A stretch of DNA of 64,000 nucleotides from Coriolopsis trogii (lineage: Eukaryota > Basidiomycota > Agaricomycetes > Polyporales > Polyporaceae). Position 1 is the stretch's first letter. Each line of letters starts with the position of its first letter. The translations under genes were made by a program, and so were the position numbers. Location of the stretch: the NCBI GenBank assembly GCA_020543525.1, contig JAHYIO010000037.1:2315542-2379541 (forward strand). Direction: 5' to 3'. Positions 44,461-64,000 of the stretch are shown piece after piece. Below the pieces are notes generated by a model. It worked only from the letters and a program-made list of their open reading frames with translations, did not search any database and was not told where the DNA came from.

Positions 44461-44552
44461 GAAGGTGGTGCTGATGCGTCCGAAGGATCAATGTTGGCAT
44501 AGCCTGTTTATGAAGTTCTTTGATAGGCAAAAGCATGTATACTTGGACAGCG
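44461..44552 (+). repeat. copy of the telomere-adjacent 92-bp sequence
   Basis: Matches 63889-63980, which directly abuts the telomeric repeats, over 92 bp without gaps. Here it continues into other sequence after TTGGACAGCGG; at the chromosome end the telomere starts at that very point. Confidence 0.75.
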
Positions 44553-45933
44553 GGTTTGACTGGTGGTGCCCTGCTTGTGCTAAGTGGTCCAACAGTTCTC
44601 GACTACCTCAATGAACTACGAATGCTGGGAAGGGCAAGGGGACAAGTTGTAAGGTGGCATGGCTGGACATGATGAGGCCAACGGTATATTGGGCATAGTA
44701 CTGCAATGAGTGGTGTAGGTTGGCAAAGAGGGAGTTTGGAATAAGTTGGGCAAATGATACATTATTTGCAGCATGGTTATGAGGCAAAATGAACGACCCT
44801 AGGGGTGGAATCTGACCCTAGGATGGGGTTACAAGGGCTATCACATGACCCTGAATTACCCAATTTGTAAAGAAGTCACACCCGTATGCTTGAACCTGCG
44901 AGACCACTATGTAAATGCAGATCGCAGCTGAGTGAGAGCCAAAAAGTGTCTCACAGTGTCAAACGTTAAGCGCAGCAGCAATCTTGCTCATTGTGGTCAG
45001 GTGCACTATCATCCGACTCTATCAGATATGGAGCTCAGAATAGTTGCGGAGCACGGACAGCTATATGAACACATGTTGGACGAGTAGAGTGTGAGTTGCA
45101 GAGAGGGGCCCTGGCATTAGTGTCTGGCAGTGTCGGATATCAAACACAGACCTGGTTGAGAGATGCTGGGGCTGCCATGCCCCACGTCCGACAGTGTCGG
45201 ACGGCGTGCGAAGCACTCGCAGACAGGCGCTGGACACCCTGTGCTCCACGTCTGACAGTGTCGGACGGCGTGCATCATAGGGGGAATATGTCCCTGATAC
45301 TAACAAGACTTTCAAAGTTTAAAGCTAATATTAAGATGTTAGACCTGTATTTGATATGTTGTACACACAGAGTGCATGATCGAGAATGGTGGACTAGTGT
45401 TGGGCGGCATGTTATAAGTAAGGCTTGAGGACAGCGCAGCTATCTCGCTGTGAGCAAGCTATTGATGCCGGCAACATATGCCTGGGGGCTTCTTGAAAAG
45501 TCTCCGCTGAGTGTACTATTGCGCGACGTACTTGACAAGGGTTTACTATGATGTTGTTCCCACCGCCTGGGATTAGGGTTATGAGAGATTCTGAGGGTCC
45601 CTGGGTTGAGATTAGACCCTAGGGTAGGGTCTTACAACCCTAGTTTAGGGTTTAAATAAGACTTTCCCACCCCCGTCCCACGTATGTCACACAGATACTA
45701 CAGACAGCCATGGGTACCAACTCATGTAGATTTAAATATCTCACGCAGCATCATATCTACACTCTATAGCAAACAGGCATATATTCTCAACTTATACTGA
45801 TTTACTATGTCTATATACTCAAATACACTAGGTTCATCTATATACTGGACTGGGATTTTATTCTGGTTAGTGAATTGAAATAGCAGTTATAGGCAAACAG
45901 CATACGATAAATCCCCCATTGCACTCTGATCGT
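44553..45933. other. AT-richer subtelomeric sequence with small palindromes
   Basis: No gene is seen. Contains three copies of a 17-bp palindrome (listed separately) and degenerate telomere-like words (TTAGGGTT at about 45575, CCCTAGTTTAGGG at about 45639). Confidence 0.45.
45122..45266. repeat. three 17-bp palindromes at 64-bp spacing
   Basis: GTCCGACAGTGTCGGAC is a perfect palindrome with one central base at 45186-45202. Variants are GTCTGGCAGTGTCGGAT at 45122-45138 and GTCTGACAGTGTCGGAC at 45250-45266. Spacing is exactly 64 bp twice; the two last copies are followed by GGCGTGC. Confidence 0.7.
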
Positions 45934-46070
45934 GGCCGCTGCTTAAAAGTCCAAGTTTGGCATTCACAGTGACAGAATATCTATACACCAAAGCATGCAA
46001 CTTGCATGCTTTGGTGTATAGATATTCTGCCATACTGAGAATGCCAAACTTGGACTTTTAAGCAGCGGCC
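45934..46070. mobile_element. 137-bp near-perfect palindrome (foldback element)
   Basis: Arms of about 67 bp start GGCCGCTGCTTAAAAGTCCA and meet at GCATGCAACTTGCATGC around 46001. Only a few mismatches and a small gap near CATTCACAGTGACAG against its partner interrupt pairing. No coding capacity. The flanks show no clear target duplication. Confidence 0.8.
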
Positions 46071-46250
46071 ATATCAAATCACACCATTGAAAGGTAACTC
46101 ATATAGTAATATGGCAGGATTATTGTTTCTTACTTGTATAGAGTGACATTGTAATCAGTGTGTTCTTATGTCTTAATGCAGCGGTTCTAACACTGTAGTT
46201 ATCTTATCTGGGACATGGTCGCGCTTATCTAGTTGCTCAATCTTATCACG
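46071..46250. other. AT-rich spacer
   Basis: No feature recognised. Confidence 0.3.
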
Positions 46251-46680
46251 CAGAGATCCGGGAGTCCGGGACGCCCTGCAGCGCGGGCCGGCACGCGGGG
46301 GTCCGAGAAATGCGGAACACACAGAGATGCGGGAGTCCTGGACGCCCTGCACCGCGGGCCTGCACGCGGGATCCCAGACTGTAGAACTCAGTTGGTCGTA
46401 AGACTCGATCGGGCAGTGTGCTTAGATTGCATGTGTGTGAATCACACCATTTTGAACCGGGCGTCCAAGACGCCCCTCACCGCGCTTCGCTTCTACTCCC
46501 TCGGGCACATCCGCCATGGCTCCCCCACGTCCTCGCTCCATGCGAGGCACGCGGCGTCCTAGACGCACTCTGCGCGTCACCCCTGGGAGTGGTACTTGCA
46601 CCCTTGCATCCAATGTGCACACATGCGGGACCTGCGGCGTCTTGGACGCCGCTGGTGGGTGTTCCGCATTTCAGGTGAGG
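46251..46680. repeat. GC-rich repeat cluster with GGCGTC-N3-GACGCC palindromes
   Basis: A unit starting CAGAGATSCGGGAGTCC and holding GACGCCCTGCA is repeated at 46251 and 46321. Palindromes follow at 46460-46474, 46553-46567 (one mismatch) and 46636-46650. Part of the 46.3 kb unit (AAATGCGGAACAC) recurs inverted at about 46665. No coding function. Confidence 0.65.
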
Positions 46681-47092
46681 CAACCCAGAGCAGCATCGAG
46701 CGTGGTGTGTTGAGGATGCCATTGTCGATATAGCACACAAATTGAATCTGTCGAGAGACATTCTATGATACATTATGTTCGAGAATACATGTCCGAGTGT
46801 ACAATATCACGAGCACGAGATGCAACCTCTGCACGGCGCTTGATGCTTAGCTGAAGATATAATAGAGCAACGAGGAAACAATCATCAGTCTGAATGTATG
46901 GAGAAATGGTAACACATAGGCAAAGCACCTCACCTATTCAACCACAAAGACACGGAGTTGGTCGGTCAGGAACTGCACGCTAGCGTCCTCCACCGCATCC
47001 CGGACCTGACCTGCAATCTTGGCGGACTTGAGGTTTTTTCCCCATAGCTTTGACCCGTACAGTTTGGCCTTGTTGCTGCGAATGGAGCTCAA
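46681..47092. other. spacer downstream of the 910-residue protein gene
   Basis: No feature recognised apart from the likely 3' end of the gene at 47093. Confidence 0.35.
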
Positions 47093-49941
47093 TCACGCGA
47101 GGAACCAGCCTTCGGCCCAGGGACTCCAGAACCTGTTGTTGTATGTGCCGCGGTCCCAATAGTGAGGTTGGGGCCACCACGACATATCCGACGTCTGCGT
47201 GTTGTGGGCATCTACATAAGAGGAGAACATTCGTTTCGTTAGCGATAGTGAATGAATGAAGGAAAGGATACGTACTGGAACAGACTTTGTAGACACCGCA
47301 AATGAGAGAAATCTCGTCTGCGGTGAGCCCATCGTCGTACCAATCGTCGCCTTTGTTTGGGCGGAACGTCTCGCCATACACAAAGACGTCCTGCGAAGGC
47401 CCATCGACCGCTGCGTCAACCAGCCCGCCATGCATGACTTCCATCGCTATCCTCCAGACAATGCCTCCCCGGAGCAAAGCAGCACGTCCTTTCGGACCCG
47501 AAAGGAGGTCGTAAACCCGCCTCTCGTATAACGTGTAGTCGTACGCATTGAGAGACATGCTGTCTGCGCGCCATCCAAGTGTCACTGGGGGGGCGGGCCT
47601 GAGGTTCATCGGTGTCCTGTGATCGGGCTGATAGATTGTTCGGAACGGAATACCTCTGCTGACGAGGTACTCTGCGGCTTCTTGGCGGTTGTCGATGTTA
47701 TGCACACGGAGGAGGGTGACCACGGTGGCCGCATGAGGAACTATGAGCTCCCAGTCCAGTTGCAGGACCTCGTCGTTGGTGTAGCGTAGGAAGTACCACG
47801 AATTCCTCGACAGTTCTCTCCTGGTAACTTGCAGGGAAGGATGTATAAGCCCGGCGCGCAGGATGTTCTGTTCGTTGTCTGGATGGAGGTCCCAGACAGC
47901 AGGGGGGATTGCGGGAGGCTTCTTGAGGAGACCGTCGATGAAGGCTCCAAAGCAGATCATGTACGCCTCATTGACCGCAAAAACACCACCATCTTCTCGG
48001 TCCGAGCAGAGGTACCCAATGGATTTGCGGAGGAGCTCGGTGGTGTAGTCGTTTTCAAACCACTCAGCCGGTGGATTCTCGAGAGGGAGCACTCCATAGC
48101 GCTGACAGAAGAGCTCGGACGCGGAATCGAACTTCGGGAGGAAGTTGACGGTGTCGGCCTGACTGAACTCGCTCAAGTCATAGCCAAATGATGCCATGAG
48201 GAAGGTAGGGATTTCCCCTTCCTCCGTGGCCTCCGCGACAGGTACCGACGAGGGCGCAGACATGTCTCCCGACGACTTCCCCTCAGCTCTCGACTTGGAG
48301 TTGGATGGAAGTGGCTGCTCAGCGTGAGATGACGAAGGCACAGGCGGAGCCGTCGGGTGAACAAAAGAGGTCGCGGTTGGAGGACCATTCATGAGCGGCT
48401 GGGCCAGGGGTGCGAAGGTCAACGGGGCGTAGAACTCGTCGTCGGAGTGGTCGTCGGATAGCTCGTCATCAGGGCACAACTTCGGACAGATATCCCACTC
48501 GTTGTGGAAAGAGTCGTAGCGTTTCTGTTTGACAGTATACTGGTGCCAGATTTCTTCTCGCTTGCGCCTCCCGACAAGTTGGCGATAATCCTTTTCAAGG
48601 AAGTCCGGGTTGACGTTCGGGTCGATCTCGCCGACTTCTACCCAAAGGAAGATGGGAATTTTATGGGGGGGATATTTGAACGCAGCGTTCGCCTGCTCCC
48701 GCTCGAGGCGGGCAGCCCGCGCCGTGTCCGACTCTTGCGCCATGATGTCCTTTGCCCTTTCCTCTCGTCGCTTGAAGAATTCCGCATAGGATTCCCCCGG
48801 CCGTTGTCCTTTGCCGTGCGGGATGTCCGCGACTGCTGGTGCATCTTGAGCGGGTGGAGCGTCGCCTGGGACTGGCAAAGGGCCTTCACTGCTCTGGGGA
48901 ACTGCCAGTTGGAAATCGAACCTGGGTTTTAACCGGTCCCAGCGGAACGTGCGAGCCAAGCCATACACAGAATTGGCAGCGACCTTGGCGGGGTCGACAT
49001 TTGGTAAACGACGAGGAGCAGGTATGTAGTGTTGCTGGCCAGAGCTACAGATACTCTGGAACCAGGGCTGATCCAACAGTGTCTCAAACAATTGCTCGGA
49101 ACGGGGGACCTCGATGTAGATGGGGAGGCCGACAGCAGCCATCACGGGGAGGTGGTCGATCCAGCACAACCGGCGCTCGTCTTTCGTGATGGAGCAATAT
49201 GCACCAACGCGGATGCCGGGAGATAGGTCGGGGATGAAACTGTTCTGGAAAATGGTGAGCCAGTTGCCGGATACCTTGGGCATGATGATTTGTACCCAGG
49301 AGGGAGGATAGTGGGCAGGCGGAGGAGGGAGGAGGGTTTTCGTCAGGGCAATCGCGAGGGTGCACCGAGCTGCAAGCACACCCATGGCGTCTCGCGCGCG
49401 CACAGCTGCAATGCGCGCGGCCGTTTCGTGAGGATGGATCCATTGATACTTGTACTCTCTGGGGAGGGGCCAGAAAGGATCGAGAGGGAATTTCGAGGCA
49501 GGGGACGGCGGGAGGGCTGCGAAAAGAGTCTCGCTGAGCCAAAGGAGAGCCTTCTCGACGCGGTCCCAGTTGTCGAGCATGTCTTTCTTCATGCGCACGC
49601 CATTCCCATACCGCTCAAACTCAAGCTTCTTGACATTGACGCCAACCTGAGCCATCCATTGATTCTCGATGTCAAACGATCGGAGCATGTATGCGAGCTC
49701 CGGGCACTTCTTGTTGACCCACAGGGCCTTGCGCAGGTCTCGACCTGATGCGCCACCATCGTACGGGCACTCGAGAATCATTCCGGGGTAGGACTCAATC
49801 TCGGATGGGTTGATGAGGACGAACATAGAGTTGTCCTCTTGGAAGAAGAGGCGCTTGAGCGGGTAGTTTTGCCTGTGGACAGTTTAGCATGCGGATATAT
49901 ATTCTCACAAGTGTCGCAACTTACAGAGTAGACAGCTCCAT
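47093..49941 (-). CDS. large hypothetical protein (910 residues), Agaricomycete-specific family
   Basis: Three exons (49941-49925, 49872-47276, 47211-47093) join in frame. The tiny first exon gives MELSTL, joined to QNYPLKRLFFQEDNSMFVLI. The body contains ALLWLSETLFAALPPSP, FWPLPREYKYQWIHPHE, ARIAAVRARDAMGVL, a Pro/Ser-rich linker with acidic DDELSDDHSDDEF, then DLHPDNEQNILRAGLIHP and LLRVHNIDNRQEAAEYL. The last exon supplies MSWWPQPHYWDRGTYNNRFW and WAEGWFLA. This SWWPxP ending and the overall layout recall a large, expanded family of unknown function that I know from mushroom genomes. No catalytic motif, signal peptide or membrane segment is seen. It is divergent from the helicase gene, and its upstream region carries three copies of the 18-bp dyad in its own sense orientation. 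Confidence 0.75.
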
Positions 49942-50106
49942 ATTTTCAATGGTCGGATGAGCAAGCGAGGGAAATGGACAGTCGGACGAGGACACAAGCA
50001 GAATATCCTGTGCGCAAGCAAGGTGAGCTATGTGACATATGGGCAATGGAATCGCGAGATAAGCACGTACGAACAGCGAAAATCGGCAGAGGGCGAGACG
50101 GGAGGT

Positions 50107-50294
50107 GTGAAGAACAATCCACACAGAACCCAGAGGTTCGAGATACGCGAGATATGCGAGAGAGGGAGAGAGGTAGGTGCCAACGGGAGGTGTGAAGAAC
50201 AATCCTCACAGAACCCGGAATGACAACACACAGTGGGTGGGAGAGAGAGAGGGAGATGTATGAGTCGACGGGAGGTGTGAAGAACAATCCTCAC
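50107..50294 (-). promoter_or_regulatory. three 18-bp dyads in front of the 910-residue protein gene
   Basis: Copies at 50107-50124, 50192-50209 and 50277-50294, each 85 bp apart, all reading GTGAGGATTGTTCTTCAC (first one GTGTGG...) on the minus strand, i.e. in the sense of the gene starting at 49941. Each is flanked by GGTTCT upstream and CCTCCCGT downstream on that strand. Confidence 0.75.
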
Positions 50295-50905
50295 AGAACC
50301 CGGAAGCAAGGGGAAGGAGAGGGGAGACGGGGATCTTGTTGGACAAAGATCGCAGAAGTTCCGGACTGGATACTTGATAGATGGTGGTCGGAGCCGTATC
50401 GACTGGGCGAGTTGGTGGGTGAAACGTCGGTTGTCGCGTGAGGGTGACTACGTGGCGAACCGTCGGAGATGGTGGGATGATGATCAGAGCCAAAGAGCAA
50501 GGGGGGGCGCCAGAAGTGAGTAGAGAAGTGGGAAAGGAGATGGAAGGATTTACCCTCCAAAACCTAGGGATGAGGGATGCGGAACAGATGTCGGGTACGT
50601 GGAAGCGACGATGTTGGACTTAGCGATTTTCGAGCTTGTGTTTGGCGCTGTTTGGTGGGGGTGGCTGTGCCGGGAAGTCGGCCTTTTGGCTTTTGCCATG
50701 CCGGTGGCTGTGCGAAGAAGATAATGAAGATCTCCATGTGGAGATGGCGATTAGACTTCTATGAGATAAGATTAGTCCGCAGCACGTGAGGAAGATGGCA
50801 TCTCAGATCGCCACGTGGACCGAAGCGACTTCGATTGAACATACTCATACTCAACGCCTACTCCTGACATCTCGCGGCTCGGCTCGTCTCCCCTCCTGCA
50901 GCCTC

Positions 50906-51347
50906 GTGAGGATCGTTCTTCACGTTCCTGCGTCTCGGGTACCTCCTGGCGACTCTCTTGCAGCCTCGTGAGGATTGTTCTTCACGTTCCTGCGTCTCGG
51001 GCTAATCTGGCGACCTCTGACGACACGTCAACCGTCTCGGCAAGACACGGGACAATAGTCCTGCGGCACCCTTTCTCTTCTGGTGTATCCATGTTTTCTC
51101 GGTGTCTGGTTATCTCGGCCCCTATCCGTGTACACGTGCTCTCCTCCCTCCTCCTCCTCCTCCTCCTCCCTCTTCCTCCTCCTCCCTCCCCGTCCGGTGG
51201 ATCTGAAGACGAGCGCGGCGCCGGCTTCGTTTCGAAGTGTTTGGGAGGTCAAACCCTGCTGCCGTCCCGCACACTCTCCGCCGGACCATGCGCAAAACTG
51301 GCACCTCCTGGCGACTCTCTTGCAGCCTCGTGAGGATTGTTCTTCAC
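50906..51347 (+). promoter_or_regulatory. three 18-bp dyads upstream of the helicase locus
   Basis: Copies at 50906-50923 (central base changed, GATCGTTC), 50968-50985 and 51330-51347, followed by GTTCCTGCGTCTCGG. They are 1.4-1.9 kb from the helicase start, so they may belong to a lost gene or a distal promoter. Confidence 0.65.
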
Positions 51348-51409
51348 GTTCCTGCGTCTCGGCCAATCTGGCGACCTCTGCTGACACGTCAGCCATCTCG
51401 GCAAGACAC
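50944..51409. repeat. 105-bp direct repeat, 361 bp apart
   Basis: 50944-51048 and 51305-51409 start with CTCCTGGCGACTCTCTTGCA, contain one 18-bp dyad each and end with CTCGGCAAGACAC, with only a few differences. Confidence 0.75.
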
Positions 51410-51416
51410 TCAAGTA

Positions 51417-51746
51417 GGGCTGCTCAATTCTTGTGGACGCTGGACGTTGGACGCGTTCAGAGCATTTTGATGGACGCAATGGTGTAAGCGAGAACAGCTG
51501 ACATCCTCCGCGCGCTTTTGCCCTTTCGGTGGCGTCAACGCTGTCCCACCAGCTCCCGCAAGATGCATATCCCTGAAACACATGCATCGGCTAGGGTGCC
51601 GTATTTCACGAACACAGAAGAATTCCGACGTCATCCCAAGGCTAGTTTAGCTCGCTGCGAGAGCTTTGAGGAGGAGAGGGAGGAGCAAGACGTCAAAGTG
51701 CTCTGAACGCGTCCAACGTCCAGCGTCCACAAGAATTGAGCAGCCC
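51417..51746. mobile_element. 330-bp MITE with 54-bp terminal inverted repeats
   Basis: The left end starts GGGCTGCTCAATTCTTGTGG and the right end is its exact inverse; 48 bp pair perfectly, then one mismatch, then five more bases. The dinucleotide TA flanks both ends (51415-51416 and 51747-51748), the usual target duplication of Tc1/mariner-type elements. There is no coding capacity, so it depends on a transposase elsewhere. It sits immediately after the second copy of the 105-bp repeat. Confidence 0.88.
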
Positions 51747-52594
51747 TAGTACCCACTTACCACACCACTATGTAAGCGACTCCCGCCAAACGATTCCGTA
51801 AACTCTGAGCCGATGCTTGTCCGACTCTTGAGCACCGCGGCTGAATACTGGCCCACGGACGAAGCTGACGGCGTCCAAGACGCCTCGCAACACGCACGGC
51901 TGTGGCGCTGCGTACAGATTTGACACACCATCTCGCCGTCCTGGACGGCCCACGCGCGGCGACCATTCCCCTCGGCAACTGGCGCAAACATGCCAAGCCT
52001 ATGCTCGGCCGGCTTGCCCCCGATTGACGACATTGTCACGGCGCCATTCCCTGCCATACATACACACACAACGTCTCTGATGCGAGATTACGATCCTCTC
52101 ACTAGGTAAGTTCTCACGTTTCGCACACGCACACAGGAGTGAGGCGTCCTCGACGCCGCGCGCCGCTTCCCGACGCCATGGCTGCTCGCCCGAGGGCTTC
52201 AGTGCGCAGAAGTAGTCCCCCGCGACAGGCGGCGTCACAGACGCCTCCGTGCGCAACGTTTATGGCCACAGTGCCTCTTTGACCCGCGGCGCGCGGCGTC
52301 TGAGCCGCCGCCTTTCTAACGAGGAACCGCCCGCATCAATCTACGCGTCGCTACCCAAGACCACCCGCTGCTTAAACATACTGGACAACGCCACCGATCA
52401 TACACTAACCGATTTTCCTTTCCATCAGAGGATTCTAGGGCCGCAAATCGTATGGTCCGAGTCGCGTAGTCTCGATGGAGCCACAACCGAGTGGGTATGA
52501 TATCTCTGCGATCAGCGATTAGCCCATATCTCACCTCCTATCACCTTGCAGAACAATGTCCCATCTCATGCCGCCAGTACTAACCCGACACACA

Positions 52595-52604
52595 TATATA
52601 TAAG
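52595..52604 (+). promoter_or_regulatory. TATA box of the helicase gene
   Basis: TATATATAAG, 69 bp before the first of two 18-bp dyads and about 180 bp before the ATG. Transcription would start near 52630, placing the dyads in the 5' untranslated region. Confidence 0.6.
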
Positions 52605-52663
52605 GCCACGGGCCAGGCGAGCTCATAGTTTACCTTTCCACCCCTTCCCCCCTCTGCAGTCTC

Positions 52664-52751
52664 GTGAGGATTGTTCTTTACGTTTCTGCGGATCACCGCC
52701 ACCGTCACCGTTACACCGCCCATCGCCAGTCTCGTGAGGATTGTTCTTCAC
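52664..52751 (+). promoter_or_regulatory. two 18-bp dyads in the predicted helicase 5' UTR
   Basis: GTGAGGATTGTTCTTTAC at 52664-52681 and GTGAGGATTGTTCTTCAC at 52734-52751, 70 bp apart, both preceded by AGTCTC and followed by GTTTCTG. The single change in the first copy turns a G-C pair of the possible RNA stem into G-U. Confidence 0.75.
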
Positions 52752-52773
52752 GTTTCTGTGTGCCCGTCCAAAG

Positions 52774-55700
52774 ATGCCCACCCCACCTCCGGCATGTGCG
52801 CTCCTCGAACTCGCGTTGACCATGAGCGTAGGTTCAGATCCCTTTGACCACCCTGCCCCCTGGTATTGGGATCAGTGGCGCAACCTCACCGATGTCCAAC
52901 ACCCCCCATGGGTCCTCGAGGCCGATCCGGAGGACGTGCTCCTGGACGAGGACAAACTCGCCGCCATCCGGGCTTTTGTTCACAAGTACTACGCGCACTC
53001 GAGCGCGGATGCACGTCTCAGGTTCTACAGGAAGTCCGAAGCCAACTTCGAGGGCCGCGACGCGCTCCGTGAATGGGTCGGCGATCGCTGGAAATCCTGG
53101 GGTGTGAACACAATCATTGATGAGGCCATGGCCGCCCATGGGCGCACTATGTACTCGGTCGCTACCCCCGACGGGTCTTCGGTAAGCTGCGTGCGATGGT
53201 TCACAATTGCTCGGGCTTACAAGGCTGTCTTCGCCAGCTTATGACCATGGAGGAGAGTTGGGCTAGCATGGCCTTCAATGACATTGTCACAAGGCTGTTC
53301 GGCGCCGACGGATTCAAGCCCGATGGAATGCCCCACTACCAGGTCTCGCGGTTCGTGACACAACTCTGCGCGCACACGTGGCACAGATGGCGCAAGTCCT
53401 ACAGTACGCGCCGTGGGTATGTCAAGAGGGCTCGGAGCGCTGCAGATCAATTGTATCAGAGTACGCAGGCTCCCGACTACTACCATTATTACGTGTGCTA
53501 ACTGTAGGTCTCTATAGAGATAGTGGGGTCGAAGACGCCGCAAATGGCCGCTGTCCGCAAATACCTGAAACAGGTGTCCACGCTCATTGAGAAGCTCAAG
53601 CTCTTCCACGACGCGGAGAGTGGTCAACGCGTGAAGCACTACTGCGAACAGGCTGAGGAGATTAAGCTGCTGCTCATCGAGGGTGACAAGGCACCCCCCG
53701 GTCGTGAGTAATCTCTTTCACCTGGGTGACGCGGGCGACTCTTAGACTAACCGTGCGCAGGCCTGCCCCTCTGTCTCAGACGCGCCTTGCTCACCATCCC
53801 GACTGAAGAGGATGTCAGAAGCATCCTAGCTCTCGTGGGCGCGACTCTCAAGGCCGCGGAGGAGGACGCAGACGACACTCCACTCCCGGAGCCCGCCGCA
53901 GGACTTGACCTCAAGAATTGGAAAGAGGGTACCGAGAAATACGCGTCTCTCGACGAAGAGGCTATAGACCAACTTCTTGGCATCGAGGACACGTTCCCTG
54001 ACTTCAACAAGGTCGACGATCCAAACGGCCTCATCGACGGGTGGTCCACAGAGGGACGCGCCATGCAGACTGCTGGGAATGGCGTCCCTCTTCGCCTCCG
54101 TTGGCACCAGAAGGTGGGCGTTCTTGCGCTCCTCGAGAACAAGTTCGCTGGGAGGAACACTGCCCTCGCGGACATGGTCGGCCTTGGAAAGACGGGGCAG
54201 GCATTAGCGTTTATCGCTGCCTCGGTCTACTATCAAGCCTCCTTCGCGACACTAGGGCATTTTCCAGGGACGTTTGGTATGTTTTAGTCCAGGCCCTGCA
54301 GGTGCAGTAATAACTCTTCTCTCACAGCGGAGAAGGACAAGTTCGGGTCTGTGGCCGCGAACGCGGGAAATCTGCCTCAGCTGCTCGTCGTCCCAGGGAA
54401 CCTCCTCGATCAGGTCATTTCCGAGATGCATCGCTTTCTCATGTTCGGAGCCTTCGCTGTCCTCCCGTACACCGCCGCGTGCAGGGAACAGAATCGGGAC
54501 GCGTTCTGGAGAGAGTTCAATCAGCTTCCTGTGCCGATGAACAGGCGCATCATTGTTGCGACGATATCTGTAAGTAGCCGGATTATCACCTCACCGAACA
54601 CGAACTGATATACTTGTAGGCTGTCAAGTCGGATGCCCAGCACTGCTTCTTCGACCAATCTGCTCGTGAGGTACACAACCGGGCGCGTCCTGCGCAGAAT
54701 CTCAGCGGCGGGCTCGCTGCTCAGACTCTATTCGGGGCGGGGCGTCAATACGACAACTTCATCCTTGACGAGGCCCATATGCTCCGCCTGCCGAACAAGT
54801 TCCACATCGGGGCGAAGGAGCTTCGGCATCGCGCACTATTCACGGTCGCTATGTCAGCTACCCCGGTGATGTCAACCCCTCAGGTACGTCCGCCTGCACA
54901 AATTACCCATTATCACACTAACTTCTTACAGGATCTCGTCAATATAGGCAACTTCCTGGGAATCCGTGGATTTGAGGAAGACGCGGACGAGCTCGACGAA
55001 TACCGCCGTATGACGGATAAATTCAAGCGCAAGGATCGTGCCGAGCGCAAAGCGGCGGGTATCAATGAAGCCACGGTCGCTCGGGCGTTCGTAAAAGGCA
55101 AGAAGACCAAGAGGCAGGACTACGAAACGCAGTACGACCGCTCGCTCCAGGAATGGATTGACAAGCTCCGTGAGCTGTTCCAAGAGCACATCATTCGCCA
55201 CACGATCGACTCCCTCGACTGGAAGGGCGAACCAATCTCCGGCCTGCCCCCATATCACGAGCATCCGTTGTTGCTGACACTGACGGAGGAGGAGCGCAGC
55301 GTTCTCGATCAGCTGGCGGAACAAGTGGTGAAGGAAGGCGCAGGGGTGCGACAGCTGCACGTGAGTTCTATTCCATGCTATGACGTCCCTCAGTTGCAGC
55401 CTGGTCCCTTGTACCTCCGAGGAGCAATCACGGGTGGGGGCGTCTTTGACGCCGCCCGCGCGATGCCATCCTGTGCCCTCAATGCGTATCCCTGGACGCA
55501 TCGAGGCCAGGCTGCCGTGAGGCGTCGAAGACGCCAATCTCTTATGAATACTGAACACTGTTGTGACAGGCGTTTTACCTCGGCATTCGGATGTGCTTAA
55601 CGCATCGCGACCTGGCAACGGACAACGTGTGGTCACCCGACGACCTCTACGTTGACAATCCGTCCACAAAGATTGATGCGGCCCTCGCAATCCTCAAGCA

Positions 55701-58071
55701 CCACAAATTGGCACCGGGCCTTCCACCTCTCTGGGTCAAACCGGGGAGCGACAACGTCCTGGAACCCAACCCGAAATATCTCCCTGGGCCCAATGGAGAA
55801 CCTCCCGCGTTGAGCATAATTCCACAGGGACCTGAACTTGGTAGGGACAAGACTGTGATCTTCTCGCAGTTCCCCCACAACAACTATGTGCTCGAGAGGG
55901 TAGGCTCCTTTGCACTTACGGTACGCGCACATCTGAGCTCACTTATACTCGCAGGCATTGACAGAAGCCGGGCTAAGCTGGCTGACCTTGCATGGCATGA
56001 TGCCGTTGCGTCAACGCACCAAGGCTCTGGAGGACTTCAAGAGGGATCCTGACATTGATGTCCTCATCCTATCAGGGGTTGGTATGGTGGGGCTCAATGT
56101 CGCCTTCGCCAATATCTTGATCATCCTGGTCAGTCCTTGTGTGTTGTGTAACTTCAGTGATGGTAAGCTCAGGGTAAATATTGTAACAGGACACGCTGTG
56201 GTCTGCTCAGGATGATTCCCAGCTCATCGGACGTATCTGGAGATATCCGCAGCCCAAGACCGTACACGTCTACCGCCTGATCGGGAGGGACACGCCGGAT
56301 GTTTTCCTGAACTCAATCTCCACAGACAAGGCGCGAATTCATCAAGCCTTCATGAATTGTTCGGTTACCATGCGTAAGTGTGATTGGTTATTTGAATTGA
56401 AGTCACGCTAACGTGTCTCATAGAACGTGCTTTTGATCAGAACAATGCCGATATCGTCGACGACGAGGACATCCTACCGGCTCAGTCCAAGGAAGGCAAG
56501 ACCAGGGCGAGAAAGAAGAAGGTCACGCAGGGAGACGAGGACGAGGGAGCTGTTGAATCGCAGCCAAAAACAGCCACGAAGAAGAGGAAGGCCGCCAAAT
56601 CTACCGAGGACAGCGAGAACACTGGTGAAGGGGCGTCGCAGCAGCCCCCGCCTGCCAAGAAAACGAAGCGCAAGGCCCAACCTAAGCCGAAGAGCCCTGC
56701 TGTCGTTGAATCGGAGCAAGAGAATGAGAGTGAGTAATGATGATTGTGTGCCGACACCTGCTAACTACATGGCTATACGCAGGTGACCCCGAGGCCTCCA
56801 AAGTCGATAATCAGAAGGTCAACGAGACCCCGCAGGGGAGGGCACCATCGGCGACACCTGCCGACGCGGCGTCCAAGACGCCTCCTGGCGCGGGGCTCCG
56901 TGGACCTTCCTCCCAGCTCCTTGCCAACGACGTCGCGGAGGACACCGCGGCGTCCAAGACGCCTTCTGGCGCGGGGCTCCATGGGCCTTCCTCCCAGGTC
57001 CCTGCCAACGACGTCGCGGAGGACACCGCGGCGTCCAAGACGCCTCCTGGCGCGGGGCTCCGTGGGCCTTCGTCCGAGCTCCCTGCCAATGACGTCGCGG
57101 AGGACAGCGGGGCGTCCAAGACGCCTCCGCTTCGTCATAAGCCAGCCCTCAAGGAACGTGTTGACGAGATTCCGCAGGCCAGCGACATGTTGGAACCTCG
57201 CGCGGCCCCTCCCAATGGTCGAGAAGGTACCCCGCGAGTCGCGCCGTCCAAGACGCCGCTGTCCACGGCCGCGCAGTCACCAGCGAATGCACCGCCTGGC
57301 GCAGTCACAGTGCCTCCTCCCATCATTGCGAGTCCCACCACTTTCCCTATCCCCATGACTGGCGACCTGATCTTTGGTCCGGAGCCACCGGAAAATGACC
57401 CGCCATCAACACCTCCTGTGAACTACCAGCAAAATGCTGACTTCGAGCCTACGCCAAGTGACGTTCAGCCTCCGCCTTTTCGCAGTGCCATTTTCGACCC
57501 TATTCCGCCTAAAGGGCGTCGACGGCTTGCGCGGTTGCCGCCTGCGGATGCCCTTGACCTCCAAGGGCAGGCACAAGATTGGGGTGCCAAGATCTTTGAG
57601 AGCGATAGCGATAGCGACGACGACTTCAGCGATTGTGGCAGCGACATCGGAAGCGTCGGCGGCCGCGCTCCTCCCGCGAAGAGAGCAAAGACCATCGCTG
57701 AGGACCGCGAGGCTCCCCAGACAGGCAAACGCAGTGCACTGGACGGCTTGCAGTCAGCAGGCCAACTCCTCCCTGGTGTCATCGAGTTGAAGAAGACCCT
57801 CGCTTCCCAAGCGGGCAGTGCATCTGAGAGTACGAGTATGGTACCAACCTCTGACAACGCTGGTGCTTCTTCCTCGAGACAGTTGATGCCTTCTGTTCCT
57901 GTAGCTGGGCAGACAAGTTCTAAGAAGGGACGTCGGGAGGTGGTCAATCAAGCGGCGCAGATGGGGCTGCAGGTCTCGAGGCGGGCACCTGCTGGTGGTG
58001 TTGACCACTTGCCATCCTCTCTCCGTGGTACGACCTCGCGTCAGACGCGTTCCAAGGCCAAGAAGGATTAG
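52774..58071 (+). CDS. SNF2-type helicase/ATPase, subtelomeric
   Basis: At least twelve exons. The start is the first ATG after the dyads (52774); 52822 in the same frame is possible. The N-terminal 370 residues are of unknown type. The ATPase core is complete: LRLRWHQKVGVLAL, ADMVGLGKTGQALAF (motif I), LLVVPGNLLDQVI, FILDEAHML (DEAH, motif II), AMSATPVMS (motif III), then the second lobe with VIFSQFPHNNYVLE, LILSGVGMVGLNVAFANI and DDSQLIGRIWRYPQPKTVHV (motif VI QxxGRxxR). A basic region (KKRKAAKS, KKTKRKAQPKPK) probably acts in nuclear import. The C-terminal 440 residues are disordered and include three 27-residue repeats. Such ATPases remodel chromatin or act in repair; its exact group is unclear. 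One intron (55361-55569) is unusually long and carries two palindromes. Confidence 0.82.
55361..55569 (+). other. 209-bp intron with a palindrome-bounded insert
   Basis: Donor GTGAGT after QLH and acceptor TGACAG before AFYLGI. Other introns of this gene are about 45-60 bp. Palindromes GGCGTCTTTGACGCC (55439-55453) and GGCGTCGAAGACGCC (55521-55535) enclose 67 bp, as if a small element had been inserted. Confidence 0.65.
56868..57125 (+). repeat. 81-bp coding repeats of the helicase, palindrome-led
   Basis: GGCGTCCAAGACGCC occurs at 56868, 56949, 57030 and 57111, exactly 81 bp apart. Each unit encodes 27 residues of the form ASKTPPGAGLRGPSSQ followed by NDVAEDT. The palindrome itself encodes A-S-K-T-P. 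A near copy lies at 57242-57256. Confidence 0.85.
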
Positions 58072-58327
58072 AGTTATCCGCACAGCATGTATACGCATAG
58101 AACGATAGAATTCCATGGCTCGTCTTAGCATATCTTCACACCCACATTGAAGTGACTCCTTGAACCCTGCGCATTGTGCCCTAAGGACGCCGCACTCCTC
58201 TAACCCATGACGGCCATGCCCTACTGACTTTTGATTAAGCCAACTCCAGGTATGCGGGTTCCGACAATGGTATTCGGATTACCCGTCAACTCTCTGCATA
58301 GTGCACAAGTCATTGACCTCTCCTGTG

Positions 58328-58570
58328 TGCGGCGTCGAGGACGCCCTGCTTGAACATCTTTCATTCTCATTGGCATGGACAACACTCGTGCCTATTAGGC
58401 ACCTCTCACGCCGCGGCGGCCAACACCTCGGACCACGACAACCTCGCGGCGTGCGGCGTCGAGGACGCCCTTCTCGAACATCTTTCATTCTCATTGGCAT
58501 GGACAACACTCGTGCCCATCACGCCCATACGAATAACAAAGGACCCCACCAGTGAGCCAGCGTTTGCCTG
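58328..58570. repeat. tandem repeat array 1, two ~124-bp units
   Basis: Units start with GTGCGGCGTCGAGGACGCCC at 58328 and 58452, followed by CTTTCATTCTCATTGGCATG and ACAACACTCGTGCC. The first unit ends with CACGACAACCTCGCGGC, the second fades out. Confidence 0.8.
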
Positions 58571-59407
58571 ATATGGGGATGTGAGTGATGCGGGCTAAAT
58601 AGCTGTCCTAGGGAGCGTGCACCGCACAAGTATCGCTCTTGCTTGCTCCATGGTTCCTCTCTGAGATTCCACCGCGCCATGCCCCCTCCTTCGTTCACTC
58701 ACATCGTCTTCTAACGAACCCAGGTTCTGTTTGTGTACCATTATTCCCCGCCCAAACATCCTCCGCAGGCCACCCTCAACCGCGTACAATCAGCCATGGT
58801 TGACATCGCAGCTCTGCAGTCCCAAGTCGAGCCCTCATTTCTCGTGAAAAGCGCACCAAGGACGCGTGCCCAAGCCTTCCACCATCGTAGATTACACATT
58901 CTACGTGCGTAAAACCGGCATATACCCTATCTTTTCCGTTTATCCCCTATCCGCGTGTCTGCCGCAACCTCGAGCCATCGCGAGTCCACCTAGGCTCCTA
59001 TCACCCGTCTGTCTACCGGAGGACGCGGGTATCCATATGGTGCGCGGACTATGTGCACTCTGTTCCTCCGAGACTCACTTCCAACAGTTATCTACGCCGG
59101 TATGCTATGTACCCTTAGGAAGAGGCACAGAGGACCCATCCGTAACTAATCATGCTTCACTTGTCCCTCGCCACTGTGCGCGAACCGACTGTTGTATCAA
59201 TCCCATCGGGTACCTCACTTCCCTCGATGACCTGCGCTGGATATCCGCTTTGGCGATCGAGCGCAACAGCACAAACTGTTGGGATCTAGCCGAATTGTCC
59301 CGCCTCAATACAGATAGCAACGTCGAAGACAAGCCTTATGCCTCGACCAATACACCATCCAACAATCGAAATAATCACTTATGTGACATTGACTGGGCCT
59401 TGCAGCG

Positions 59408-59930
59408 TGCGGCGTCGAGGACGCCCTGTTCAAATATCTGCATTGTCATTTGTATACATGACACTCGTGCCTATCACGCTCCTCTCACGCTGCACCGGCA
59501 AGCACCTTGGACCCCGACAAGCGCGGCGTGCGGCGTCGAGGACGCCCTCCTCGAATATCATCTGCATTGTCGTTCATATACACCACACTCCTCACGCCTC
59601 GGCGGCAAACATCTCGGACCACGACAAGCGCGGCGTGTGGCGTCGAGGACGCCCTCCTCGGAAATCTTGCATTGTCATTTGTATACATGACACTCGTGCC
59701 TATCACGCCCCTCTCACGCCGCGGTGTCAAACACCTCGGACCACGACAACCTCGCGGCGAGCGGCGTCGAGGACGCCGTTCTTAAATATCTTTCAATTCC
59801 ATTGGCATGGACAACACTCGTGCCTATTACGCACCTCTCACGCCGCGGCGTCAAACATCTCGGACCACGACAACCTCGCGGCGAGCGGCGTCGAGGATGC
59901 CCTGTTCGAACATCTTGCCTTTTCCTTCCT
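59408..59930. repeat. tandem repeat array 2, five 107-124-bp units
   Basis: Palindromes at 59411, 59532, 59639, 59763 and 59887 (last with one mismatch) head five units related to array 1. Shared parts are GACACTCGTGCCTATCACGC, CTCACGCCGCGG and CACCTCGGACCACGACAA. Units differ by small indels and by CATTTGTATACATGA versus CATTGGCATGGACAA variants. Confidence 0.82.
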
Positions 59931-60208
59931 TATTCCTGTACACCTACTCATCTCCATAGGTTCCACCAATGGCAAACTGCTCTTCTCCCAGTGCTACCCG
60001 TTGCCATCTTCATAGTTAGTGCTGCAAGTCTCCCTGCATTGTTCATACAGCATTGTAACCTGCACTAGTTCTTCACCCATATAGCATGCCAAATCACCTC
60101 CCTGCTTATGTTATTACTGAGATGGCTATATGTGGTTACTATTTGATGACTCAGCTATTTGCCTGTGTTGAACTAATTCTCACAGTCAAATTTTTTGGTG
60201 GAAGCAAG

Positions 60209-60216
60209 TATAAAAG
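60209..60216 (+). promoter_or_regulatory. TATA box of the 521-residue protein gene
   Basis: TATAAAAG, 73 bp before the first 18-bp dyad, almost the same distance as at the helicase gene. Confidence 0.65.
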
Positions 60217-60281
60217 GCACAGGGGTGGAAGTGGAGAGAATTTCACTCTTCTCTCCCAACCCCCACTATCCCCTAGGTTCT

Positions 60282-60374
60282 GTGAGGATTGTTCTTCACA
60301 TCTCCTATTCCACCACACTAGTTGTGCACTCGGTCTTGCTGCATTGTCTAGGTTCTGTGAGGATAGTTCTTCAC
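60282..60374 (+). promoter_or_regulatory. two 18-bp dyads in the predicted 5' UTR
   Basis: GTGAGGATTGTTCTTCAC at 60282-60299 and GTGAGGATAGTTCTTCAC at 60357-60374, 75 bp apart; both preceded by AGGTTCT and followed by ATCTCCTAT. The change in the second copy falls in the possible loop. Confidence 0.75.
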
Positions 60375-60427
60375 ATCTCCTATCACACCACACGCGTTAT
60401 ACACTCTCAGTCCTGCCTGCTCTAGTC

Positions 60428-62093
60428 ATGGAGTATCCTGATGAATTTCGCCGTCCTCTCCAACTCAGTCTTGCTAGTCTCATTGACCATGCCAAAGCAT
60501 ACCTGGATGAAGGAACTCCTGAGGCAGTCGATCATTTCATGCGCCTAATGCTTGCAGGCCGTGCATTGGTCAATGGAGAAACACGTCGTGTATTCGTCAA
60601 TCCACTCCAAGGGGTGTCATATCCAGCTGAGGGAGAGTACCAGATCACAGGGGATTTTGATTCTCTCATTGGCTTTTGCTTCACTCTCCCTCTCAAATGT
60701 GCTATGGCTGTGTATCCTGTGCCCTCCTTCCAGCACACTCTCACCAAAACAATCCACATTAGGCTACAGATCACCATCAACCAGGTATATCTAATACTAT
60801 ACATACAGACTTGAGCTAACATCATCTATAGGTTTTGCACCTTATTCCTGCTCATAAGATTCCCAACATATGCATTGGTCGCTTCGACATGCGTCATCAA
60901 ATTCGTCTCTTCTTTCCAAAACTCTACCGAGAGAATATGCCACCAAAGATTGACCCTGAAGACATTGCTCTCATCTATGACCAGGCGATTCATCCAGCAA
61001 TTAGGAAGCTTATGCCAGAAAGCTTGGCTCGCTGGCCAGCCTCCTATGCTGTTGCCTTTGCAGCTTCTAAGGATTCCCGTGGCCAGATTCACTATCAGTC
61101 TGTTGATGTACCAGAGGCGCTCCTTGGCCGCTTTGCCAGACATGTTCGCGCAGCACTCAATCGTTTCCCTCGTTTTGAAGACTCTGTCTTTCAGATAGAG
61201 ATCCGAGGCACCAAAGGAGCATACAGCTTTCCATTCAATGACGCCGATGCCCGCGAGTATGCCTTCAATCTATTCATTGAAAGGCTAGATAACACTCGTA
61301 TGGGTCCTCATGACAACTACTATGTTGATATCGGTGTTGAGATACATCATGATGGACACTGCGTACAATGGCTAGATGCTGCCCACCAGCGGTTGCTTGC
61401 TCATGCTCTCCCCTCTGCTTCCTCTGCTGCCATCTCTGCCCTTTCCAGATCCTCCAAAATGCACAAGGATATTAGCGGTCATCTTTTCGATCTTTCTGGG
61501 TTCCGTGTCGAGACTGGAACAAAAGGAACAGCCGACAAGGTTGTCTATGTCAATGTCTACACCACAGACAAGGCTGTAACCTATCAACTTCATGATGGAA
61601 TCTTTAGAGAACGCCGCGCCTCAGAACTATTCCCTGGTCCATTTCCCCATCTTATAGACGACATCAATTCCATCTCCCACACCTTTGCAGTCTGTGCTGG
61701 CTCACAAGGGACTACTCAAGATGGCACAGCCAGATATGAACTCCGGGTCAAAATGTCCAATGTGGACACTGCTCTTACCACCTTCCCTCATGAACTGGTG
61801 CAACTTTCGGTAGTGTCAATCCCTAATGATATTTGGTGGTTAGTACAGTTAAATTGTATGCACATTAGTTTGATTGCTAACTTAGCAATAGGACCTTCAA
61901 ATATTATCGAATTGCGGCCATTCACTACATTCTCAACGAGTTCATTACTGATCCTCCGAACTCCCGTGCAACTCTTCCCTCCCTTACTCTGGGTGCAGCA
62001 TGTATCTTCATGCTCAATGCTGTCATGTCCCGTCCTAGTGACTGGCGAGCTGAAACTGCCTTACAAAATACTGTATGCATCCTAGTGTTATGA
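60428..62093 (+). CDS. hypothetical protein (521 residues), Agaricomycete-type, 3' end possibly replaced
   Basis: Three exons (60428-60784, 60832-61838, 61892-62093) join in frame. The protein starts MEYPDEFRRPLQLSLASL and contains FDSLIGFCFTLPLKCAMAVY, HTLTKTIHIRLQI, LIPAHKIPNICIGRFDMRHQ, IRLFFPKLYRENMP, HYQSVDVPEALL, FQIEIRGTKGAYSFPF and YYVDIGVEIHHDGHC. I know this layout from large proteins of unknown function in mushroom genomes, usually much longer. No catalytic motif is recognised. Codon use is clearly AT-richer than in the core genes. The stop at 62091-62093 falls inside the subtelomeric repeat that begins at about 62082, so the original C terminus was probably cut off by that repeat. 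Promoter architecture (TATA, two dyads, ATG) is the same as at the helicase gene. Confidence 0.7.
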
Positions 62094-62956
62094 ACCGTGA
62101 ATTATGTTCCATAATTCAGTTTGGCCCAGGTGACAAGCGCAGTGACAAGCCAATTGCCGGCCAACCGTTGCTCGGATTCTTGGTGACAAGGGGTCCTTTG
62201 TGTAGCCAAGAAGCAGGGCTATCCGCTGGTAGTAATTTTGTGGCTGTGCGCCCAGTCCCCGTGGAGATATAGCCAGGTGACAAGCCTCAATGCCTTTTGG
62301 CACCGGGTGACAAGCTCAGTGTGGAGCCCATTGTGACTCAACCCCTGGGCAGAACCCAGGTGACAAGGGGTCATATGAAAGCCAGGATACAAGGCTACAA
62401 AATGAGGGTAGAACCAGGACGATCCATGGAGTCTCCGTTGAGAAACGGCTTGTCACCTGTTGTCACTGGATTCTGAGGCAGAGTTGGTCTCCGGGTGGTG
62501 ACAAGCTCATTGTGGCTGCCCCTCTGGTCGGAACCCAGGTGACAAGGGGTCCCCTGGGAGCTATAACACAGGGCTACAAGATGGGGGTACAATCATGGGA
62601 ATCTATGGAGTCTCCGTGGAGAAACGGCCAAGTGACAAGCAGAGTTTGCGTTCTGGGACTGTCACCAAGGTCATTGAGAGCCTGATTGTGGGCCAACCGT
62701 TGGTCAGAACCTTGGTGACAAGGGGTCCTTTGTATAGCCAGAAAAGAGACGAATCCAACGGTACCCATTTTGTGTCTGTACGATGTGTCTCCATATAGAA
62801 ACTGCCTTGTCACCTCCGGAATATCGCATTCTGGCATGCTGGGTCTGGTAGATTGGACCATGTGACCTGACCAGCTGTCCAGGTCATGTGACTAAACTTG
62901 CTAGCAGTAAGGAAGTATGGTCACATGACTGGGTCACCCACCATGTCACATGACCT
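62082..62956 (+). repeat. subtelomeric ~177-bp-unit block, terminal copy
   Basis: GGTGACAAGGGGTC occurs at 62182, 62359, 62538 and 62714 (spacings 177, 179, 176). Nearly identical to 43594-44460 apart from a different first 60 bp and scattered changes, in the same orientation. Confidence 0.82.
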
Positions 62957-63888
62957 CAGTTGCTTACTACTGGTAAGTCTGATCATGTGATTTGTCCAAA
63001 CTTGATGAAGTGTTATGTTTGAGTGGCTGGTGTTTGTTTGTATGTTCTTGTAGCCATACACTGTGGCTATCTGATGGTACCAGACTTGTTGCGAATGGAC
63101 CTTTATTGGGGGAGTTATAGGCCATATACACTTGCCCAAATGCGGAAAGTTGGGGGTGTTTATGATCGCTACTTTGGGCGCTTACGTCAGCATGTTGTAG
63201 ACGTGATCAATAGCTCACTAACAGTACCAGTCTTATTAGAAACGGACAAGTATTGACCCCTTTATGACCAATATACATTTGCCCAAATGCGGAAAGCTAG
63301 GGTCTCTTCAACGCTCTTGGGCGCTTGTGAAGAGATCATGTGACAAAGTGACGCAGCGTCAGACTGTCACGTGTACCCGGCGCTTGTGACCTTGTCATGT
63401 GACACACCGACGTCAGACTGTCACGTGGCCACTCCCATAGGCGCCCAATCTCGTTGCCAACTGCTCTGACCTTCCGCATTTGGGCAAGTTTATATTGCCC
63501 TTAGCCCAGTCAATAATGGTCTGTTTACCATGAGACTAGTACCATTAGAAAGCGTGCACCCGCGCCTACAACATGATGATGTAAGCGCCCAAAAGCGTCG
63601 TTTTCCCCACCCCCAACTTTCCGCATTTGGGCAAGTTTGTACTACCCATGGCTACTCCAATAGTGGTCTGTTTGACATGAGACTAGTATCATTGTAAAGC
63701 TCTCATTTATGCCTACATTATGCAAGGTAGCATACGCATGCTAGAGCTAAGCAACCTCCGTTATATCTGGGTATAGTTTCTTTTGATGGATAGGAGAGAA
63801 AGCCATAGTTGAAGTTCCTTTGTTTTAGCATTTCAGGCTTTAGCACCCTTACTGGCCCTATTACAGATCATCTTGGAGTCACTACTCT
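62957..63888. mobile_element. 932-bp insert with a foldback core
   Basis: Interrupts the repeat block relative to the internal copy, which passes directly from 44460 to 44461. Its core is a large inverted repeat (63126-63640). No coding capacity is recognised, so it may be a non-autonomous element; target duplications were not identified. Confidence 0.55.
63126..63640. repeat. inverted repeat with ~215-bp arms
   Basis: TTGCCCAAATGCGGAA occurs directly at 63132 and 63279 and inverted at about 63472 and 63620, 147 bp apart within each arm. The arms also share GGGCGCTTACRTCA, CATGTTGTAG and AGTATTGAC-like words. The centre (about 63330-63430) repeats TCATGTGACA and CAGACTGTCACGTG twice. Confidence 0.78.
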
Positions 63889-63980
63889 GAAGATGGTGCT
63901 GATGTGTCCGGAGGATTGATGTTGGCATAGCCTGTTCACCAAGTTTTTGGATAGGCAGGAGCATGAATATTTGGATAGCG
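63889..63980 (+). repeat. telomere-adjacent 92-bp sequence
   Basis: Same as 44461-44552 apart from about ten substitutions. Ends at GGATAGCG, where telomeric repeats begin. Confidence 0.75.
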
Positions 63981-63981
63981 G

Positions 63982-64000
63982 TTAGGGGTTAGGGTTAGGG
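63982..64000 (+). repeat. telomere repeats
   Basis: TTAGGGG, TTAGGG, TTAGGG up to the last base. The G-rich strand runs 5' to 3' toward the right end, as expected for a right chromosome end. Confidence 0.9.

Follow-up and report, generated by a model that had tools for sequence, protein, structure and literature searches.

In a subtelomeric block of the polypore Coriolopsis trogii, the genes of a multi-gene element carry copies of one small hairpin in their presumed leaders, and these hairpins are probably RNA tags, for which a factor specific to the element is proposed as the reader. The block lies in a 64,000-nucleotide stretch of contig JAHYIO010000037.1 (the window; here contig C34), and is placed as subtelomeric because the window closes with TTAGGG repeats at the right end of the contig, as an initial annotation had proposed. 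This version of the block, element 1 (el1), contains an uncharacterised gene A, an SNF2-like helicase gene C and a second uncharacterised gene D. A diverged paralogous block (el2) and a third version with a different hairpin (el3) can be compared with it. The location, structure, covariation and multiplicity of the hairpins, their confinement to blocks of the element and their replacement as a set between elements can all be read directly from the DNA. From the same sequences it is highly probable that the dyads function as RNA hairpins.

The initial annotation had listed ten copies of an 18-bp dyad, GTGAGGATTGTTCTTCAC with variants, and the positions, strands and sequence changes given for all ten were correct. 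At up to three mismatches the window holds 10 matches, compared with a mean of 0.06 and a maximum of 1 in 100 shuffles. The 18-bp core is thus real, and the structure around it is longer than had been described: each el1 or el2 hairpin is 36 nt long and consists of an 8-bp stem (not 7 bp) with a UNGU loop, a 3x3 internal loop and a 4-bp lower stem. Three copies on the minus strand precede gene A, two stand directly before gene C and two before gene D (Table 1). The annotated rule that copies precede genes in the sense of the gene holds for these groups. The remaining three copies (group B) point away from gene A and towards gene C, in the same direction as gene C, with no gene of their own seen. 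The proposed spacing of 70–85 bp likewise fits A (85 and 85), C (70) and D (75), and fails for B, where the copies at 50906, 50968 and 51330 are 62 and 362 bp apart. Across the elements tandem copies mostly lie 56–94 nt apart, the exceptions being the B3 copies at 362 and 485.

The evidence for an RNA structure comes mainly from covariation. An alignment of the 10 el1 copies and 7 el2 copies of locus L010, one of which (L010 5265-5300) was spotted by eye, gave 15 distinct rows of 36 nt (8 el1, 7 el2) without gaps; near-identical copies at other contig ends were excluded. Without guidance, RNAalifold returned the same 12 pairs that had been proposed beforehand (.((((...((((((((....))))))))...)))).). 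Standard pairs fill 176 of 180 cells (97.8%), compared with 83.0% in shuffles and 34–67% when the partners are slid, and 6 of the 12 pairs show changes on both sides. None of 500 shuffles reached the percentage paired, the number of two-sided cells or the covariation score, a control that is not to be read as a probability because the rows are related by descent. Compensatory base changes, by which structured cis-regulatory RNAs of 5' leaders are recognised, are therefore present, and the covariation analysis that the initial annotation had called for comes out in favour of the hairpin. The loop UNGU is found in 15/15 rows with three of its four bases constant, and pair 14/23 is a G·U wobble in every row. 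The eighth stem pair varies between C-G and U-A, and pair 13/24 is A-U but C-G in one el2 copy. The lower stems differ from group to group and mostly remain complementary (CGGG/CCCG, GCAG/CUGC and UAGG/CCUA; 57 of 60 cells paired).

Comparison of the two paralogous blocks separates the hairpins from the DNA around them. In el2, whose gene A protein is 61% identical, groups A, B and C are also present. Over six homologous hairpin pairs the identity between el1 and el2 is 0.83–0.94, compared with 0.57–0.75 for the 51-nt flanks and 0.60–0.63 for shuffled flanks. The loop-closing pair 16/21 is A-U in all eight distinct el1 rows and G-C in all seven el2 rows, and was changed on both sides in 6/6 of the homologous hairpins compared. 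At the same time the internal loop and the lower stem of each group persist between el1 and el2, and since these group-specific parts are kept only a few bases away, simple copying is unlikely. The pair change across the whole set thus suggests that a single reader common to all copies selects for it, and that short tracts were not simply copied. The comparison also bears on the idea that the hairpins have no function and are repeat remnants copied along with subtelomeric blocks, for which it can be said that most copies in the genome are near-identical segmental duplicates. However, the hairpins are much more conserved than their flanks and carry compensatory changes, and this explanation is largely refuted because the compensated pair is common to all seven el2 hairpins; we consider it extremely unlikely.

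The gene A protein has paralogues near other contig ends, and at one of them the arrangement of groups A, B and C recurs with a hairpin of another sequence. At el3 on contig C6 (loci L045 and L053), where the gene A paralogue is 38% identical, the el1/el2 hairpin was not found (best model score 10.2 bits). Instead, another hairpin is present in 12 copies: four precede the gene A paralogue, six face away from it and two stand before the ATG of the SNF2-like paralogue. The loop is CUAUA in 11 copies and CUACA in one, and stems reach 15 bp. The 10 distinct rows are paired in 90/90 cells with three pairs changed on both sides, and the covariation score of 0.467 (0.275 in shuffles) was reached by none of 500 shuffles. 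Two-sided pairs were reached in 27/500 and further pair types in 14/500 shuffles, and when el3 is limited to groups A and B (eight distinct rows), 7/500 shuffles reach the score. All three elements share a G·U wobble beside a G-C pair near the loop.

The initial annotation had left two possibilities, an RNA hairpin or a dimeric DNA-binding site. The RNA branch gains from the wobble, the complementary lower stems and the asymmetry between strands, as reading the opposite strand lowers the paired cells to 158/180 (vs 176) in el1/el2 and to 65/90 (vs 90) in el3. The DNA branch, in which the copies would be promoter sites for a dimeric transcription factor, can point to the symmetry, the promoter-proximal place, the several copies and the constancy of much of the el3 core (13 of 29 columns invariant). 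It is at odds, however, with a G·T mismatch retained in 15/15 el1/el2 and 10/10 distinct el3 rows, with 25 of 90 el3 cells that are G·U or U·G, and with outer arms that vary by group yet stay complementary. The orientation in gene sense and the place downstream of the TATA box at genes C and D do not suit it either, and symmetric half-sites conserved as DNA were not found. A DNA-level dyad is thus disfavoured and quite unlikely.

The distribution of the hairpins was followed in the 38.8-Mb, 39-contig assembly. With up to two mismatches the 18-mer has 64 matches, which, as the initial annotation had expected, cluster near chromosome ends in blocks of this kind: the 55 with no or one mismatch all lie inside copies of the el1 block (contigs C2, C5, C27, C28, C32, C33, C34 and C35), and of the nine with two mismatches six fall in el2 near contig ends (C4, C27 and C39), the other three being isolated (C20, C28 and C34). 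A pattern for the hairpin, YGTGNGGNTNGTNCTNCACR, has 71 exact matches on contigs C2, C4, C5, C27, C28, C32, C33, C34, C35 and C39, every one inside an el1 or el2 block, and five further el1 copies (the variant of hairpin C1) differ from it by one mismatch. At two mismatches it has 455 matches vs 357 in a backward control, so that only exact and near-exact matches are meaningful. For el3, all 51 exact matches of TGCGGCTATACTGCR are in el3 blocks on contigs C4, C6, C30 (both ends), C31 and C36. A further 15 matches with one mismatch divide into 11 inside such blocks and 4 outside them. For either pattern, every exact match is at most about 33 kb away from the end of its contig, or else the contig is itself shorter than 50 kb.

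Are the hairpins part of the messages? Several features of the putative leaders would fit a place in transcribed non-coding leader exons. The hairpins read in gene sense in 7/7 leader groups (el1 A, C and D; el2 A and C; el3 A and C), which are not independent of one another; copies in both orientations, which the initial annotation had named as evidence against its proposal, were not seen. Its distance of about 70 bp from TATA box to hairpin at two genes is borne out (69 bp at gene C and 73 bp at gene D, from start to start with the first core). Between the first hairpin and the start codon there is no ATG in 4/4 C or D leaders, with 1.15 (el1 C), 1.66 (el1 D), 1.13 (el2 C) and 1.29 (el3 C) expected from base shuffles. 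The A leaders of el1, el2 and el3 each contain exactly one ATG (2.94 expected in el1 A), which lies within a putative intron; such introns are found at the same place in el2 (L010 3886-3945) and el3 (L045 1280-1335). Furthermore, a transcript that starts at group B may form an alternative long leader of gene C, with a putative intron whose splice-site pair is also readable in el2. A weak additional hairpin upstream of hairpin A3 has a counterpart in el2 of only 12.7 bits (E 0.22).

Table 1. Hairpins, genes and leader features of the subtelomeric block in window coordinates
Feature	Position	Strand	Remark
Gene A	46980..49941	-	Uncharacterised protein; 948-aa open reading frame 46980-49826 plus short first coding exon
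Putative 5'-UTR (untranslated region) intron of gene A	50008..50070	-	GTACGT..CACAG; 3' of the hairpins of gene A; sequence reading
Hairpin A1	50098..50133	-	Gene A leader; 36 nt
Hairpin A2	50183..50218	-	Gene A leader
Hairpin A3	50268..50303	-	Gene A leader
Presumed divergent promoter between groups A and B	50310..50890	.	Inside a stretch 70% identical to el2 (859 columns, hairpins included)
Weak, possibly degenerate extra hairpin	50533..50567	-	Model 20.4 bits, E 0.0044
Hairpin B1	50897..50932	+	Loop UCGU
Hairpin B2	50959..50994	+	
Hairpin B3	51321..51356	+	
Putative intron of B-initiated transcript towards gene C	52106..52428	+	GTAAGT..ACTAAC..CATCAG; el1/el2 alignment
TATA box of gene C	52595..52603	+	TATATATAA
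Hairpin C1	52655..52690	+	Gene C leader; one G-C to G-U
Hairpin C2	52725..52760	+	Gene C leader; 18-nt core ends 22 nt before ATG
Gene C	52774..58071	+	Intron-containing SNF2-like helicase gene; motifs DMVGLGKT (P-loop), DEAH and SATP; 3' end approximate
TATA box of gene D	60209..60215	+	TATAAAA
Hairpin D1	60273..60308	+	Gene D leader
Hairpin D2	60348..60383	+	Gene D leader; loop UAGU
Gene D	60428..62083	+	Uncharacterised family; cut short at telomere-side repeat (compare L049)

A number of observations weigh against the hairpins being functional RNA tags of the element. Two of five covariation measures of the el1/el2 rows are unremarkable, as two-sided pairs were reached in 30/500 shuffles and further pair types in 374/500. 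Individual copies are damaged: stem pair 13/24 is broken (U-U) in hairpin A1, the B3 copy on contig C35 (L020 ~3500-3530) is disrupted with an altered 5' arm and loop, and the B1 copies on contigs C32 and C33 lack the lower stem, cut off by the telomere-side junction. Some relatives of the genes have no hairpin at all, namely the gene D paralogue L049 at the end of contig C4 (64% identical), the distant gene A paralogue L052, whose upstream region was searched with the hairpin model, and an el3-type gene A copy on contig C28 that has other DNA upstream; gene A fragments on contig C8 are likewise without an exact YGTGNGGNTNGTNCTNCACR match. The idea that all gene A paralogues carry hairpins was rejected because L052 and the copy on C28 have none. 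An RNA-binding domain was not recognised in the A or D protein by Pfam. Finally, in whole-leader folds only 9 of 24 hairpins form at a probability of at least 0.9, with 7 at 0.4–0.8 and 8 at 0.05 or less, largely because neighbouring palindromic copies pair together.

This last behaviour could itself be the function, with tandem copies acting as a pair, either by switching between local hairpins and a duplex between copies or by dimerising messages of the same element in trans. The copies are indeed palindromes in tandem, and an inter-copy duplex is the minimum free energy structure predicted for el2_C, el1_A and part of el3_B. However, local hairpins prevail in el1_C, el1_D and el3_C (0.99, 6/6), such duplexes are expected of any tandem palindromes, and in such a duplex the two loops would lie opposite each other without pairing, which leaves the constancy of three of their four bases unaccounted for, so this explanation appears quite improbable. 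The same duplexes, together with local stems and the long stems of el3, would suit substrates of RNase III or Dicer, cut in order to destabilise messages or to seed small RNAs for subtelomeric silencing. For Dicer, stems of 8 bp, a 3x3 loop and 4 bp count as short, and el1/el2 offer just these; exact conservation of the loop is not expected for Dicer either, and the loop differs from the AGNN of Rnt1. Processing by such enzymes is thus unlikely.

On the most probable reading, the hairpins are cis-acting RNA in the non-coding leader exons of genes A, C and D, and gene C may have two promoters, one marked by group B and the other by group C. Each element would have its own trans-acting factor, which would bind the stem-loop (UNGU in el1/el2, CUAUA or CUACA in el3), with the tandem copies providing avidity, and would set translation or message fate of all messages of the element jointly, as a feedback loop. 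For the existence of such a reader the sequences leave the chances about even. It would most likely be encoded by the A-C pair because, of the three genes examined, only A and C occur with all three hairpin types; gene D appears to be part of the regulon in el1 only. As a more tentative extension, a private hairpin for each element and a coevolving reader encoded by that element might yield orthogonal RNA circuits that do not interfere within one nucleus, with gene D enlisted through its two hairpins.

The proteins themselves give few hints. Pfam searches with A, four of its relatives, D and pieces of gene C returned nothing above curated cut-offs, the SNF2 family (PF00176) matching gene C below its cut-off with E 0.0082. 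When the 7992 best-sharing candidates were scored, 12 relatives of gene A were found, three of them named (Trametes pubescens, Ganoderma boninense and G. sinense). The AlphaFold model of A is poor (predicted local distance difference test score 50.8) and not usable, and seven designed SAKe proteins found by the gene A profile in PDB (about 24 residues, best E 1.6e-05) were discounted as a short similarity due to chance or repeats. Gene C has paralogues with 57–58% (el2), 40% (el3) and 34% identity (contig C28, 8010); a protein search with one gene C exon gave two matches, a number probably limited by a length rule. For gene D 44 relatives were found, those named being mostly from Trametes, Cerioporus, Lenzites, Lentinus and other polypores, with few others including Jaapia and Hypsizygus. 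No A or D relative was confirmed in viral contigs among the stretches matching both peptide patterns of each search.

A confident model of the D family was obtained by folding the Trametes sanguinea relative P0018, not the spliced protein of the window itself. Neither PDB nor viral structures gave it a confident match (Foldseek none at E 0.001), and the gene D profile had no match among PDB sequences. Three rolling-circle initiator rows appeared among its fold similarities with Z below the meaningful level, a weak lead at most. In REP/RAYT (repetitive extragenic palindrome/REP-associated tyrosine transposase) systems, hairpins of single-strand DNA are recognised by an HUH-type enzyme, and the copies described here could similarly be target or end sites of a mobile element. 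As a candidate for such an enzyme nearby, D shows weak fold similarity and no Pfam match of that kind. The el3 loci on contigs C6, C30, C31 and C36 carry hairpins without a D match, and the G·U-rich stems and sense orientation suit RNA better; a DNA hairpin of this sort is very unlikely.

Other repeats were seen in and around these genes. Dispersed 15-bp dyads (GGCGTC-NNN-GACGCC, with free centre) occur at 18 places between 46460 and 59763 of the window, both intergenic and within gene C, and also in L010, L016, L024 and L049, with a variant GGAGTC/GACTCC in the last two. A role of these GGCGTCNNNGACGCC dyads in the hairpin system is unsupported because several lie within gene C. On contig C28, many copies of a palindrome, GTCYGACAGTGTCGGAC, stand upstream of the 34% identical SNF2-like gene (L024 ~300-1330), and a nested inverted repeat with arms of 38 and 31 nt that are 95–97% complementary lies upstream of the rearranged el3-type gene A copy (L027 5256-5394). 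A telomere-side repeat that starts TAGTGTTATG..CCGTGAA (window ~62083-64000) is joined inside gene D, and recurs on contigs C32 and C33 with a different break point in the flank of hairpin B1 (L018 and L019 ~1375-1380); a role as healing or terminal element is possible. Elsewhere in the window, an inverted repeat at 45948-46056 matches several microRNA families on either strand, though under their gathering scores, and GC skew at 40001-42000 is 0.43, far above the remaining window.

Do the hairpins belong to a known system? Rfam 15, searched up to E 5 (window 44000-64000; L045, L053, L010 and L052), gave 12 and 3 weak matches, none over the hairpins. One parallel in function is the iron-responsive element (IRE). 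Its loop is CAGUGN and its stem contains an unpaired C; it occurs usually once per leader and is read by a protein of the iron regulatory protein (IRP) type. As there, one hairpin type stands in several gene leaders, and a trans-acting protein would coordinate the genes post-transcriptionally. Unlike IREs, the present hairpins have UNGU (15/15 rows) or CUAUA/CUACA loops and no CAGUGN loop with C bulge, a 3x3 internal loop in el1/el2, two to seven copies per group and a sequence specific to the element. The constitutive decay element of Roquin has a YRN triloop and is usually found in the 3' UTR; here a tetraloop UNGU or a pentaloop CUAUA is predicted, upstream of genes. Nor do the el1/el2 or el3 loops correspond to yeast Rnt1 RNase III substrates, which carry an AGNN tetraloop on a long stem. 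In phage operators such as those of the MS2 coat protein and lambda boxB, the protein that reads the small stem-loop is encoded by the element itself, and related elements use orthogonal hairpins; the present genes, in contrast, are eukaryotic nuclear genes with introns, for which a reader protein is proposed.

Among fungal RNAs, covariation-supported autoregulatory mRNA structures have been described in 5' UTRs or introns, and for some of them binding of the encoded protein has been proposed (Gao, Jones, Rivas 2021; PMC8216456). The genomes queried there were those of five ascomycetes, and most of the structures are described as single copy per genome, whereas the present hairpins are multi-copy, subtelomeric and found in a basidiomycete, and are exchanged as a whole set from one paralogous element to another. 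Subtelomeric RecQ helicase genes beside telomeres are also documented in fungi (PMC10817607). Gene C differs from them in being SNF2-like, divergently paired with gene A and tagged by hairpins, of which the passages available from that source make no mention. Judged by titles and the starts of abstracts, none of the papers found in the library searched on fungal subtelomeres, helicases, hairpins and UTR covariation reports these hairpins.

The hairpins provide a handle on the control of subtelomeric gene families in mushrooms and on the roles of the A and D proteins, and could supply new compact RNA tags. If hairpin and reader do coevolve element by element, they would be a naturally occurring example of orthogonal RNA-protein pairs that evolve within one genome.

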